NCBI RefSeq assembly: GCF_000828895.1
Contig: NZ_AP014568.1
Span: 1,681,858-1,745,857, forward strand
Length of the DNA: 64,000 nucleotides
Reading direction: 5' to 3'
Origin: Serpentinimonas raichei
GTDB lineage: Bacteria > Pseudomonadota > Gammaproteobacteria > Burkholderiales > Burkholderiaceae_C
The notes beneath the pieces are model-generated. The model worked only from the letters and a program-made list of their open reading frames with translations, was not told the DNA's origin and searched no databases. Below, one piece after another: positions 2-4,018 of this stretch (within the stretch, counting starts at the first letter, position 1; the number at the start of each line of letters is the position of its first letter). Position numbers and translations under genes: made by a program.

Positions 2-1555
2 TACCTCCACACCGGCACCCCCCTGTGGCTGTTGCTGGCGTGCGGGGTCTATTTGTTTTCGACGGCGGCGGTGCTGCGCTGGAGCCGGCCGGCCAGCGCC
101 GACTCGTTCTGGTCGATCGGCTGGGGCCTGACCCTGTGGATCGATCTGGTTTTTTTTGGCCTGCTGCAAACCCTGCACAGCGGTGTCATCAACTACATGC
201 CCTTGTTCATCTTGCCCGTGTTGCTGGCTTCGGTGCTGGGGCCGCTGCGGCTGGCGCTGGGCAGCGCGGCCTTTGCCACGCTGGTGCTGCTGTTCGATGC
301 GCTGGCGGGCGATCTGCTCGGCCCCCAGCAGGCAACCACCTATGTGCAGGGCGCCATCTCAGGGGCGGGGCTGTTCATCGTGGCCCTGTTGGTGCACCAG
401 TTGGCGCGCCGCTTGGGGCGCGAACAAGCCCAAGCCAGCAGCCACCGCGCCATGGCCGACGCGCAAGCCCAAGTCAATCAGATTATCGCCACCGGCCTGA
501 GTGAGGGGGTGTTGGTGATCGATGCGCGCGGCCAAATCTGGCACGCCAACCCGGCCGCTTGCGCCATGCTGGGTGCCCCGGGCGAGCGACCGCCTTATGC
601 GCTGCTGCCCACCCTGCCCGCCTGGCCCCTGCTGTCGAGCTGGGCCCGCGCCTTGCTGGCACAGGGGAGCCACATGGATTGCACCATGCGCCTGCCCCGG
701 CCTAGCCAAGAAGCGCTGCAGGTCCAGTTGCGCGCCCACATCAACTGGCCGGCGCCACACAGCCCGGCGCAGCCCGCTTGCGTCATCTTCATTGAAAGCC
801 TGCGCGACGTCGAAGCCCGCGTGCGCAACGAAAAACTGGCCGCCATGGGCCGGGTGTCGGCGGCGGTGGCGCACGAAATCCGCAACCCGCTGGCGGCCAT
901 CAGCCAAGCCAACGCCCTGCTGACCGAAGAGGCGCTGACCCCCGCACAACAGCGCCTGAGCACCATGATCGGGCAAAACGCCAAACGGCTGGGCCGAACC
1001 GTGGACGACATCTTGGAGCTGGCCAAGCTGCCGGCGCGCCCCGACTTGGCCTTGCCGCTGCTGCAGCTCGACGCCGAGGCATCCGACATCGTGGCCGACT
1101 GGCAAGCGATCAACCCAAGCAGCAACCTGGTCTGGCAACCCGGTGCGCCCGCGACCGCGGTGCACTTTGAGGCCGAGCACCTGCGCCGGGTGGTCATCAA
1201 TTTGCTCGACAACGCGCGCCGCCATGCCCCACCAAATGCCACGCCCAACGCCCCCGCGCTGCAAGTCAGCACCCACGACAGCCCCGATGGGGTCTGGCTG
1301 GAAGTCTGGAACGCAGGCCCTCCGATGCCCGACGAAGTCGAGGCACACCTGTTTGAGCCCTTCAACTCATCCCACAGCCGCTCCAGCGGACTCGGTCTGT
1401 ACCTCGCGCGTCAACTGTGCCAAGTCTATCGGGCGCAGCTCGACTACCAGCAGCAGACCCGGCAAGGCAGCAACGGCCACTGCTTCGTGCTGCGCTGGAA
1501 CGTGCGCCAAAATCCCAACGAGGGACGGCTGCCCCAGCTCGACTTCACCTTGTAA
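2..1555 (+). CDS. pilS: Sensor histidine kinase PilS (5' partial)
   Basis: Membrane sensor kinase that controls the response regulator encoded just downstream. In the family, PilS senses pilin levels and phosphorylates PilR to switch on pilA through sigma-54. The reading frame is open to the first base, so the N terminus lies outside the window; a TTG at 32 is inside the gene. Hydrophobic segments fill the first ~130 residues, followed by a PAS-like linker. The H-box reads AAVAHEIRNPLAAIS with the phospho-accepting His codon at 872-874. The N-box (INLLDNARRHAP) and G-box (SSGLGLYLARQL) follow. The stop is 27 bases before pilR, consistent with an operon. Confidence 0.93.
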   Translation, partial: YLHTGTPLWLLLACGVYLFSTAAVLRWSRPASADSFWSIGWGLTLWIDLVFFGLLQTLHSGVINYMPLFILPVLLASVLGPLRLALGSAAFATLVLLFDALAGDLLGPQQATTYVQGAISGAGLFIVALLVHQLARRLGREQAQASSHRAMADAQAQVNQIIATGLSEGVLVIDARGQIWHANPAACAMLGAPGERPPYALLPTLPAWPLLSSWARALLAQGSHMDCTMRLPRPSQEALQVQLRAHINWPAPHSPAQPACVIFIESLRDVEARVRNEKLAAMGRVSAAVAHEIRNPLAAISQANALLTEEALTPAQQRLSTMIGQNAKRLGRTVDDILELAKLPARPDLALPLLQLDAEASDIVADWQAINPSSNLVWQPGAPATAVHFEAEHLRRVVINLLDNARRHAPPNATPNAPALQVSTHDSPDGVWLEVWNAGPPMPDEVEAHLFEPFNSSHSRSSGLGLYLARQLCQVYRAQLDYQQQTRQGSNGHCFVLRWNVRQNPNEGRLPQLDFTL

Positions 1556-1582
1556 GCGCCCGCCACAACCCGACCCCTTGCC

Positions 1583-3193
1583 ATGTCCGCTGCTGCCCCC
1601 ACCCCCTCGCGCCTGCTCGTGGTCGACGACGAACCCGATTTGCTCACGCTCTATGAGCTGACGCTGCGAAAAAGCGGGCATCAAGTGGCCGCCGCCAGCG
1701 ATCTGGCGCAGGCGCGCGCCCTGCTGGCCACGCAGCGCTTCGACGCCCTGATCACCGACATGCGCCTGCCCGACGGTTTGGGGCTGGAGCTGGTGCGCGA
1801 ACTGACCCAGGCTGGCCGGTCCGAAAAAACCATCGTGGTGACCGCCTACGGATCAGCCAACAACGCCGTCGAAGCCCTCAAAGCCGGCGCCTTTGACTAC
1901 CTCACCAAACCCGTGGCCCCGGCGCAACTGCGCGCGGCAGTGGCCAATGCGCTGCAAGCCGCCCGGCCGCCTTGCAGCGCGGCGCAGACCAACCCGGTCA
2001 AACCCACAGCCGCGGGGGCCGGGCTGGACCGGGGTGAGGAATTGGAACGTGTGACTGACGAACCCCGGCGCAACACAGTCACGGCCCTAGGCCCGATGGC
2101 GGGGGCCGGGCTGGGCCGGGGTGAGGAATCGGAACGTGTGACTGACGAACCCCGGCCCAGCCCGGCCCCCGCCACCGCCACCGGCGCGCTGCAACAACTG
2201 GTGGGCCGCAGCCCCGCCATGTGCGCGCTGCGCGAGCGCGTGTTGCGGGTCGCGCGCAGCATGGCCCCGGTGCTGGTGCTGGGCGAATCAGGCACCGGCA
2301 AGGAACTGGTGGCGCGCGCCCTGCACCACTGCAGCCACCGCAGCGACGGCCCCTTTGTTGCCGTCAACTGCGGCGCCATCCCCGATACCCTGCTTGAAGC
2401 CGAGTTCTTTGGCGTGCGCAAAGGCGCTTACACCGGCGCCAGCGCGCACCGCGAAGGTTACTTTCAGGCCGCGCGTGGGGGTACCCTGTTTCTGGACGAG
2501 ATCGGCGATTTGCCGCATCCGATGCAGGTCAAGCTGTTGCGGGCGGTGCAAGAGCGGCGCGTGCGCAGCCTCGGCGCCACCGACGACGAAGCAACCGATG
2601 TGCGGCTGATCAGCGCCACCCACATCGACCTCGAACGGGCGGTGGCTGCGGGGCGCTTTCGGCAAGATTTGTATTACCGCCTGAACGTGATCGACCTGCA
2701 CCTGCCCCCCTTGCGCGAACGCCTCGAAGACCTGACTGAACTCGCGCAATCCTTGCTGCAACGTCTGAGCGAGCGCAACGGCAACCCCGAGCCACCCGTG
2801 CTCAGCCCCGCCGCGCTGGCCCGCTTGGCCCAGCATCCCTTCCCCGGCAATGTGCGCGAACTGGAAAACCTGCTCGAACGCGCGCTCGCCCTGCACCACG
2901 GCCCCGTGCTCGACGCCGAAGCGGTCTGGACGCCGCCGCCCGCAGCGCAGCGCGCCTTGCCCGAGGCCAGCAACGGCCATGCGGCGGATTTCAGCCCCAC
3001 CCAGCCGCCTGCAGACGGCTGGCCTGCCCCAGCCCCCGATGAGCACGCCCCCACCCGGGAGCAACTGCTGGCTTGGCTCAACCTGCACCGCTGGAACCAG
3101 TCGCGTGCCGCACGCCAGCTCGGCTGGACGCTGGCCAAACTGCGCTACTGGATGCAGCGCCACGGCCTGACCGATGCGGCGGCCCACCACTGA
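1583..3193 (+). CDS. pilR: Sigma-54 response regulator PilR
   Basis: Two-component activator of type IV pilus genes, partner of PilS. The receiver domain (about residues 10-125) carries D15/D16 and phospho-acceptor D59 in LITDMRLPDG. The AAA+ sigma-54 domain (about 210-445) has Walker A GESGTGKE, a GAYTGA loop (usual form GAFTGA) and Walker B GGTLFLDEIGD. A Fis-type helix-turn-helix lies at the C terminus (NQSRAARQLGWTLAKL). At 536 aa it is longer than most PilR proteins because the receiver-AAA linker (about residues 144-197) contains two in-frame copies of a palindromic DNA repeat, described separately. It converges on tolA with 36 bases between stops. Confidence 0.95.
   Translation: MSAAAPTPSRLLVVDDEPDLLTLYELTLRKSGHQVAAASDLAQARALLATQRFDALITDMRLPDGLGLELVRELTQAGRSEKTIVVTAYGSANNAVEALKAGAFDYLTKPVAPAQLRAAVANALQAARPPCSAAQTNPVKPTAAGAGLDRGEELERVTDEPRRNTVTALGPMAGAGLGRGEESERVTDEPRPSPAPATATGALQQLVGRSPAMCALRERVLRVARSMAPVLVLGESGTGKELVARALHHCSHRSDGPFVAVNCGAIPDTLLEAEFFGVRKGAYTGASAHREGYFQAARGGTLFLDEIGDLPHPMQVKLLRAVQERRVRSLGATDDEATDVRLISATHIDLERAVAAGRFRQDLYYRLNVIDLHLPPLRERLEDLTELAQSLLQRLSERNGNPEPPVLSPAALARLAQHPFPGNVRELENLLERALALHHGPVLDAEAVWTPPPAAQRALPEASNGHAADFSPTQPPADGWPAPAPDEHAPTREQLLAWLNLHRWNQSRAARQLGWTLAKLRYWMQRHGLTDAAAHH
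2012..2173 (+). repeat. Duplicated palindromic repeat inside pilR
   Basis: A 57-base unit occurs at 2012-2068 and again at 2099-2155 with only two mismatches (offsets 17 and 32). The offset is 87 bases, or 29 codons, so the frame is kept. The second copy is one arm plus loop of a perfect 24-base inverted repeat: 2098-2121 is the reverse complement of 2150-2173, with a 28-base loop (2122-2149). The encoded residues include GRGEESERVTDEPRP twice with small changes. This looks like a mobile palindromic element tolerated in a flexible linker. Confidence 0.85.
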
Positions 3194-3218
3194 AGCCGCG
3201 CCCCATGCCGACTTAAAA

Positions 3219-3230
3219 AGCGGCGCCGCT
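3219..3230 (-). terminator. Possible weak terminator after tolA
   Basis: The palindrome AGCGGCGCCGCT overlaps the tolA stop codon. On the minus strand it is followed by five T residues (3215-3219). The stem is very short, so the call is weak. Confidence 0.3.
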
Positions 3231-4018
3231 CAGTCTTGCGGCCTGAACCCTAGGATGAGGACGCTGGGAACCCGGCCGTCGGTGTCGCGCGGCAAGCGCC
3301 CGGTGCGCTCGATCGCCCGCAGCACCGCCGCATCCCAGCCGGCATGGCCGCTCGATTGCAGCAAGCGGGTGCTCAGGATCGTGCCATCGGGCAGCGCACG
3401 CAGCTCGACCTCGGCGCGCGGGTTGGCGCCCAACACCTCGGTAAACACGATGTTGGGCCGGATCGCAGCCGCCAAGCGACTGGCGTAGCCGGGAGATGGA
3501 CTGGCAGCGGGCGCAGCGGCCACTGGGCTGGCCGCCGCAGTGGCCGCCGCGCGGCCCATGATGCGCTCGATGTTGCGCTGGTGCTCGGCCTCGCGCTGGG
3601 CCTCTTGCTCACGCCGTTCGCGTTCGGCCAGCTGAGCTTGGCGTTGCTCGATCCGTTCGCGCTCGCGCTGCTGCTCGATGGCGATGGTCGCAGCGGGAGC
3701 GGGCGTGGGCGTCTGAACTCGGGCCGCAGGCGGTGCAGGCGTGGGCGGGCGAACCACGGGCGGCGCTGGCGGAGGTGGCGCTGGCGGTGCAGGGGGCACA
3801 GGCGCCGGTACCGGTGTGGGTGCTGGGGGTGCCTGCGCGGCCTGCGGCAATTGCGCCCACAGCTCGGCCTGCACCACCTGCATGGCGGGCTCGCGCTGCC
3901 AGTTCACGCTGGCGCTCAAGGCCAGCACCAGCAGCGCGTGTATCCCCAGCGCCAGCGCCAAAGGCAGGCGCCAATGGCCCGGGGCGGGAGGGTTGAGGTC
4001 GGGTGGGGTTGGGTGCAT
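3230..4018 (-). CDS. tolA: TolA / TonB C-terminal domain protein
   Basis: Periplasm-spanning link of the Tol-Pal envelope system, which draws on the proton motive force through TolQ-TolR and pulls on the outer membrane during division. One transmembrane helix sits at about residues 18-38. A proline/alanine-rich stretch (55-105) follows, then a charged coiled coil (about 110-165, runs of E, R, Q) and a C-terminal TonB/TolA fold (about 175-262) with a typical AVLRAIERTGRLP motif. It starts 38 bases after tolR. No tolB or pal follows; the next gene is convergent pilR. Confidence 0.88.
   Translation of the reverse strand: MHPTPPDLNPPAPGHWRLPLALALGIHALLVLALSASVNWQREPAMQVVQAELWAQLPQAAQAPPAPTPVPAPVPPAPPAPPPPAPPVVRPPTPAPPAARVQTPTPAPAATIAIEQQRERERIEQRQAQLAERERREQEAQREAEHQRNIERIMGRAAATAAASPVAAAPAASPSPGYASRLAAAIRPNIVFTEVLGANPRAEVELRALPDGTILSTRLLQSSGHAGWDAAVLRAIERTGRLPRDTDGRVPSVLILGFRPQD

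Follow-up and report, generated by a model that had tools for sequence, protein, structure and literature searches.

Since the Rickettsia palindromic elements (RPEs), palindromes that are translated within protein-coding genes have counted as a curiosity, and their spread and the persistence of their hairpins are open questions. RPEs are dispersed palindromes that lie in frame within unrelated housekeeping genes and are translated (PMC10969869, PMC3733652); they are summarised as about 150 bp long with a conserved encoded peptide (summary in PMC10969869), but RPE-4 and RPE-6 are shorter elements, equivalent to short CGTC repeats (PMC3733652). The CGTC-tagged REPs have stems of 8-9 bp, loops of 4-5 nt and a terminal tag, and the part of PMC3733652 that treats them ties no transposase to these repeats. 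The same part of that source describes REPs as mostly intergenic, and gives examples of GTAG and CGTC REPs that lie within genes, among them uvrA of Thioalkalivibrio and O. terrae and tRNA synthetase genes, as well as cases from R. conorii.

The window, i.e. the whole stretch of Serpentinimonas raichei DNA that was analysed (64,000 nt), carries two tandem copies of a palindromic element within a pilR-type response regulator gene. The features are as follows (positions of the window):

1583..3193, + strand: pilR-type response regulator gene hosting both copies (ORF, 536 aa)
2011..2035, + strand: copy 1, 5' arm (2012-2035 pairs with the copy 2 3' arm, 2149-2172, at 96%)
2036..2061, + strand: copy 1, loop (one change relative to copy 2; model match 2011-2086, 51.9 bits)
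2062..2086, + strand: copy 1, position of the 3' arm (complementarity limited to about 7 nt)
2098..2122, + strand: copy 2, 5' arm, 25 nt (model R1 match 2098-2173, 90.9 bits, copy 2 belonging to the training set of R1)
2123..2148, + strand: copy 2, conserved 26-nt loop (core 2126-2145 = GAATCGGAACGTGTGACTGA)
2149..2173, + strand: copy 2, 3' arm, 25 nt (25/25 pairs with 2098-2122)

The 536-aa product matched Response_reg (residues 12-120) and Sigma54_activat (residues 206-372), and the NCBIfam matches listed were of the NtrC class only, each scoring under its cut-off; we infer the gene name pilR for this sigma-54-type response regulator. The frame upstream was judged by eye to be histidine kinase-like. 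Two near-identical 57-base copies had been predicted to lie 29 codons apart in the linker, and this was borne out: the copies (2012-2068 and 2099-2155) differ at 2/57 positions, start 87 nt (29 codons) apart and correspond by arithmetic to about residues 144-197, which places them in the linker, between the end of the receiver (residue 120) and the start of Sigma54_activat (residue 206). The perfect inverted repeat proposed at 2098-2121 and 2150-2173 was also recovered; addition of T2122/A2149 gives a 25+25 stem with a 26-nt loop at 2123-2148, and outward extension gives 29 nt at 97%. Both arms are present in the second unit only, the first unit pairing over ~7 nt with its own 3' side, and a spacer resembling 2062-2086 was found again between the tandem pilR units of G001, one of the three genomes of the genus examined (G000, which is the genome of the window, G001 and G002).

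Folding of the hairpin gave z-scores of -10.8 on one DNA strand and -10.6 on the other, and of -10.4 when the + strand was folded as RNA, with 0/200 shuffles equally stable in each of the three foldings, and the hairpin is far from chance. The 20-nt pattern GGAACGTGTGACTGACGAAC, covering the loop and the loop edge, matched the window twice at up to 3 mismatches, versus a mean of 0.00 in 100 shuffles. Searches of positions 1500-3300 gave no Rfam match at the gathering score and 18 matches up to E 1; miRNA-like Rfam rows arise from any long hairpin. A known RNA family was thus rejected, as was a hammerhead-like core (strand CTGACGA...GAA), which on inspection lacks one junction helix and the cleavage site.

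We read the pilR feature, with a probability of roughly 0.67, as a tandem pair of a dispersed, non-autonomous palindromic DNA element of the REP/RPE class, which would act as a folded single strand and be tolerated in flexible linkers. The unit consists of a 25-bp stem and a loop of usually 26 nt (28-31 nt in some divergent copies), for a length of 76 nt in the main family and up to 81 nt in divergent copies. Its conserved part is the loop, a point that the original prediction had overlooked; the arms are free in sequence yet covarying.

Arm pairing was assessed in 60 of 63 non-redundant copies (three lacked full flanks), which had been chosen by their loop, and not by their pairing, and were laid out without gaps around it. 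The mean pairing over 28 positions was 0.76, versus 0.50 (maximum 0.54) in 1000 shuffles of the arms among copies. Values for single pairs were mostly 0.7-0.93 at pairs 1-25, the lowest being 0.55 at pair 20, and dropped to or near background at pairs 26-28; all four Watson-Crick types occur at several arm positions. In alignment A1, whose 36 sequences were picked from the 48/60 copies with at least 17/25 pairs, 95.2% of the cells are paired, a percentage that is thus selected, two-sided changes occur at 25/25 arm pairs, and covariation reached 0.757, versus 0.173 when shuffled and no more than 0.161 when slid. Alignment A3, in which divergent loops were included, gave 0.886 versus 0.195; its 39 rows are 76-nt copies only, so that its gapless length is partly a matter of choice, and the model that supplied its divergent rows favours paired arms.

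The copies found by covariance model have a different apex, e.g. GACGATTTCTGCTCGCAGTATGAGGA; their arms are again 25 nt long and most of their loops 26 nt, with some of 28-31 nt. The invariant columns of A3 are A27, G29, A30, T46, G47, A48 and G50, and pair 28-49 exchanges CG for GC (25/14) and is never broken. From these columns and two covarying loop pairs, GA-S-GA and TGA-S-GA may be read as tandem sheared G.A pairs that flank a Watson-Crick pair and extend the stem up to a small hairpin at the apex, for which a CNNG-like tetraloop is predicted in most loop variants. Such a tandem G.A structure would be possible on the GA-rich strand alone. Folding programs left most of the loop open.

As had been anticipated, the element is dispersed: a genome-wide search with the 84-nt element (one contig, 2,574,013 bases) returned strong matches beyond pilR. 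At up to 3 mismatches the loop pattern gave 9 copies in G000, 16 in G001 and 10 in G002, and the reversed pattern gave 0 matches in these three genomes. Model R2 found ten matches in G000, where the hosts are pilR (2), uvrA (2), leuS, murD, murF, gyrA (C-terminus), holB (C-terminus) and a type IIG restriction gene; gyrA was identified from a partial piece below the cut-off, and holB scores 165.9 versus a cut-off of 180.6. Copies at three further loci, two in G002 and one in G001, lie beyond these eight named genes.

A scan of genome contigs with the exact loop pattern gave 22 stretches, every one in Burkholderiales, namely in Serpentinimonas, Limnohabitans, Hydrogenophaga, a Comamonadaceae member, Tepidicella and Tepidimonas (the last two placed by NCBI in Burkholderiales incertae sedis). 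At up to 2 mismatches, 12/399 genomes of the family sample carry the strict pattern and 1/399 the reversed one, and the three Serpentinimonas genomes hold the most copies by the strict pattern. In the order sample, R2 at E 1e-4 under stricter filters matched 3/250 genomes, one of which (G567) belongs to another family and has a different loop. Of 27 genomes searched with the A1-based covariance model, 16 gave matches, two of them weakly (G043 and G126, E 0.006-0.007); five of the six control genomes in this run were empty, and the sixth was the weak match G126. The viral, plasmid and phage collections gave no match by the exact pattern and none by blastn at E 0.01 with the filtered 84-nt query, and carriage by a virus, plasmid or phage was therefore rejected.

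For the analysis of host genes, 109 copies were used (63 from the pattern and 46 from the covariance model, each place being counted on one strand), which is not a full census: two loci, one contig-edge place, opposite-strand rows and covariance-model matches without a chosen locus were left out. By tblastn, 82/109 copies were assigned to the eight genes (UvrA 38, LeuS 21, PilR 7, MurD 5, MurF 4, type IIG gene 3, GyrA 2, HolB 2) and 27 were left over; outside Serpentinimonas, uvrA or leuS hold 50/74 copies. The host genes have no common function. A host frame is free of stops through the element in 82/82 assigned copies, and the same frame was matched on both sides in 73/82, with only one side visible in 8/82 and differing frames in 1/82.

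The GA strand serves as coding strand in 42/82 copies and as template strand in 40/82, counts that include orthologous copies and are therefore not independent, and single genes are skewed (LeuS 6 with and 15 against; PilR 7 with and 0 against). Opposite orientations also occur at one and the same gene site between species, in murF, murD and uvrA (G000 versus G002) and in leuS within one genus (g52). The two senses encode unrelated peptides, EESERVTDE or SSVTRSDSS, and are equally open. Because orientation is near-equal overall and opposite at shared sites, the conserved entity looks like DNA and not like mRNA or peptide, which argues for recognition of the element as DNA. A function at the mRNA level is disfavoured, copies being near-equally sense and antisense.

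At four loci the uvrA frame is very long, reaching 2340 aa, and a single gene holds as many as four copies, several of which form adjacent pairs of opposite orientation. For LeuS, a family survey gave a match in 140/145 genomes, and the loci of 29 of these 140, together with that of G053, were inspected; 13 have long loops, including the known carriers G000, G002 and G040. An inverted repeat that beat all 40 mononucleotide shuffles was present in 12/13 long loops (in three of the 12 by one point); 0/16 short loops (30-32 residues) had one, nor did the 38-residue loop of G053, short loops offering less room. At six loci, in-frame palindromic repeats with different loops were seen in the LeuS loop of other genera. 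Since some long LeuS loops thus carry other palindromes, this loop seems to accommodate palindromes in general.

Comparison of orthologous sites bears on how the element is maintained. Among four species of g52, 0.09-0.14 of the fourfold sites of leuS differ, and the 26-nt loop is identical; between G245 and G371, 12/25 pairs of the leuS arms differ, 7 of them by two-sided compensated changes. Orthologous copies were compared in 53 cases that kept 15/25 pairs or more unchanged; these cases overlap one another and lack independence. Their 1325 pair positions held 99 two-sided compensated, 151 one-sided and 10 other two-sided changes; by our own estimate from these counts, just a few two-sided changes would be expected if the sides changed independently. 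The acting form would be the folded GA-rich DNA strand, whose loop, continuing the stem via tandem sheared G.A pairs, would be read by whatever copies or converts the element. The arms may be kept matched by one arm templating the rewriting of the other upon hairpin replication or repair, and selection for the hairpin may be a second cause; copies would last solely where an in-frame flexible insert does no harm. One-sided arm changes outnumber two-sided ones, so that templated correction is not the sole process.

Loops behaved differently from arms. At four uvrA sites, whose orthology was judged from the arms and flanking text, the apex is CTG..CAG in G168, G245 and G371 and GTG..CAC in G053 or G312, at a fourfold divergence of 0.09-0.19 among the genomes compared. 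A fifth uvrA site has its own loop types (TGG..CCG or GCG..CGC), again differing between the same two genome groups, and homogenisation is therefore incomplete. A CAGAG loop variant was found in G002 in murD, murF and one further site, and was seen in neither G000 nor G001. Loops thus tend to follow the genome, and arms mostly the site, which looks like loop conversion or reinsertion. A tentative possibility is that the mobile, converting part is the structured loop, which would invade or replace the loops of existing hairpins in either orientation and so make loops alike across a genome, the stem being regenerated arm from arm. This would amount to a mobile hairpin free of stem sequence, recognised in its single-stranded DNA form, and a site could switch to another encoded peptide with its frame intact. 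The element was also observed at apparently the same place of the type IIG (MmeI-like) gene in G000 (C1:1174900-1178000) and in G567, that is in two families and with different loop types, which suggests gene transfer and loop replacement.

Many sites are common to several species, so that much can be accounted for by inheritance plus conversion, with no need of transposition; near-identical strains showed no new insertion, and current mobility is accordingly a matter of inference. It is unlikely, all the same, that the copies are simply vertically inherited palindromes under selection for a functional nucleic-acid hairpin, be it a binding site or a structured transcript, and not a selfish element. 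The conserved stem length would fit such selection, as would the leuS loop, which is 26/26 identical between G000 and six Limnohabitans at a fourfold divergence of 0.38-0.43, an identity that is partly ascertained because the loci were found by the exact loop pattern. The near-equal orientation, the patchy distribution in both the family and the order sample, the lack of a common host function, an element-free holB site and the varying number of tandem units in pilR all speak against it.

The holB end is the one clear element-free site: G000 has a hairpin with 36-nt arms there, and G002 has neither arm. A target duplication, one of the marks of a MITE, is not clearly visible at this one site in G002. 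In G001 the holB end lies at a contig edge (C86:1-346) and holds units of ~84 bp in tandem, whose loop is degenerate and which run in the opposite sense. In leuS of G053 the loop and the inner arms are missing and the outer flanks resemble those of G245, which is best read as a deletion. These two sites weigh on the proposal that a loop-only element inserts into pre-existing palindromes, each site supplying the arms, which we consider very unlikely. Arm sequences do differ strongly between sites, and G053 leuS could pass for a target that retained its outer flanks, but it is equally a deletion, the loop-free holB of G002 has neither arm, and the pilR, murD and holB copies of G000 have nearly the same arms, which indicates that arms travel with loops. 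The proposal was rejected with the holB site of G002 arguing against it.

A mobiliser was sought by means of PF01797 (Y1; RAYT/IS200 type), which was present in 24/28 family genomes searched, including 8/12 carriers of the strict pattern, and absent from G000, G001, G002 and G090. Being absent from the top carriers and present in most other genomes, PF01797 does not track the element, and this search found no partner enzyme. That the element is of the REP/REPIN type and mobilised by a RAYT (Y1) transposase is consistent with a small dispersed hairpin and with the frequency of PF01797 in the family, but is made highly improbable by the lack of PF01797 in G090 and in all three genomes of Serpentinimonas, the richest in strict-pattern copies, by a conserved loop without GTAG and by a stem whose sequence is unconserved. 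RAYT mobilisation in Serpentinimonas is thus unsupported.

The element was predicted to add roughly 50 residues to PilR, and about 45-50 is a fair figure: from the receiver end to Walker A there are 122 aa here (two copies), 101 in G002 (one copy) and 179 in G001 (four copies), versus 69-92 aa in 14 genomes of 13 other genera, where the element model has no match at the pilR locus (8/24 genomes queried with PilR had no match at the cut-off). The series of 1, 2 and 4 units among three species of the genus fits the suggested recent duplication, and with further copies in the genome and shorter, element-free linkers in those 14 other-genus genomes, the outcome that would have spoken against the original prediction, a single genomic locus and non-palindromic linkers of the same length in all relatives, did not emerge. 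The chance that the repeat is a protein-level feature, a linker peptide fine-tuning PilR and other enzymes, is close to negligible: the 7/7 pilR copies in the same sense and their varying unit number would suit it, but elsewhere both senses and their unrelated peptides are used, even at the same site across species, and PilR is element-free in the 14 genomes of other genera. As a dispersed DNA element, the repeat most likely does no more in PilR than lengthen a disordered linker, extra units probably being added through slippage.

The family is found in free-living bacteria, some of them cultured, and has a common architecture. Its notable properties are the strong covariation of arms that have no common sequence, the opposite orientations at shared sites and the genome-wise similarity of loops. 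Two questions are made testable, namely whether templated correction keeps the arms matched and whether the G.A-rich loop is recognised, as single-stranded DNA, by a protein. A published description of this element family was not found in the open-licence PMC papers searched.

Set beside known systems, the element resembles integron attC sites in being a folded strand of variable sequence and conserved structure, but differs in that the loop keeps its sequence and the stem is free. Like GTAG REPs and REPINs it is a non-autonomous hairpin scattered through the genome, but its conserved loop lacks GTAG and Serpentinimonas lacks PF01797. It resembles the CGTC REPs, as characterised in the relevant part of PMC3733652, in being a small hairpin without a known dedicated transposase and, for some copies, in lying within coding regions. 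The CGTC motif of those REPs is terminal, whereas here, on our own reading of the complementary strand, CGTC/CCTC stands at both loop edges, inside a long stem, and the 25-bp stem and loop of 26 nt or more contrast with the 8-9 bp and 4-5 nt given for those repeats. REPs are mostly intergenic by that account, whereas 82/109 copies lie within eight genes here; the oddity of palindromes in uvrA, published for other bacteria in the same section, is now repeated in another lineage.

The likeness to Rickettsia palindromic elements drawn in the original prediction is apt for a translated, dispersed palindrome that lies in frame within unrelated protein genes, as this one does, and stands as a likeness, not as membership in the RPE families. 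By description, and as far as the RPE accounts cited above go, the element is set apart by its length (76 bp or slightly more), its use of both senses, its sequence-free arms and its other lineage. The element shows neither the length of about 150 bp nor the conserved peptide that PMC10969869 gives for RPEs, which bears on the long RPE class only. The element thus works like RPEs yet misses defining features of the families tested; it is of the REP/RPE kind, but differs in stem length, in the free sequence of its stem and in its conserved structured loop.
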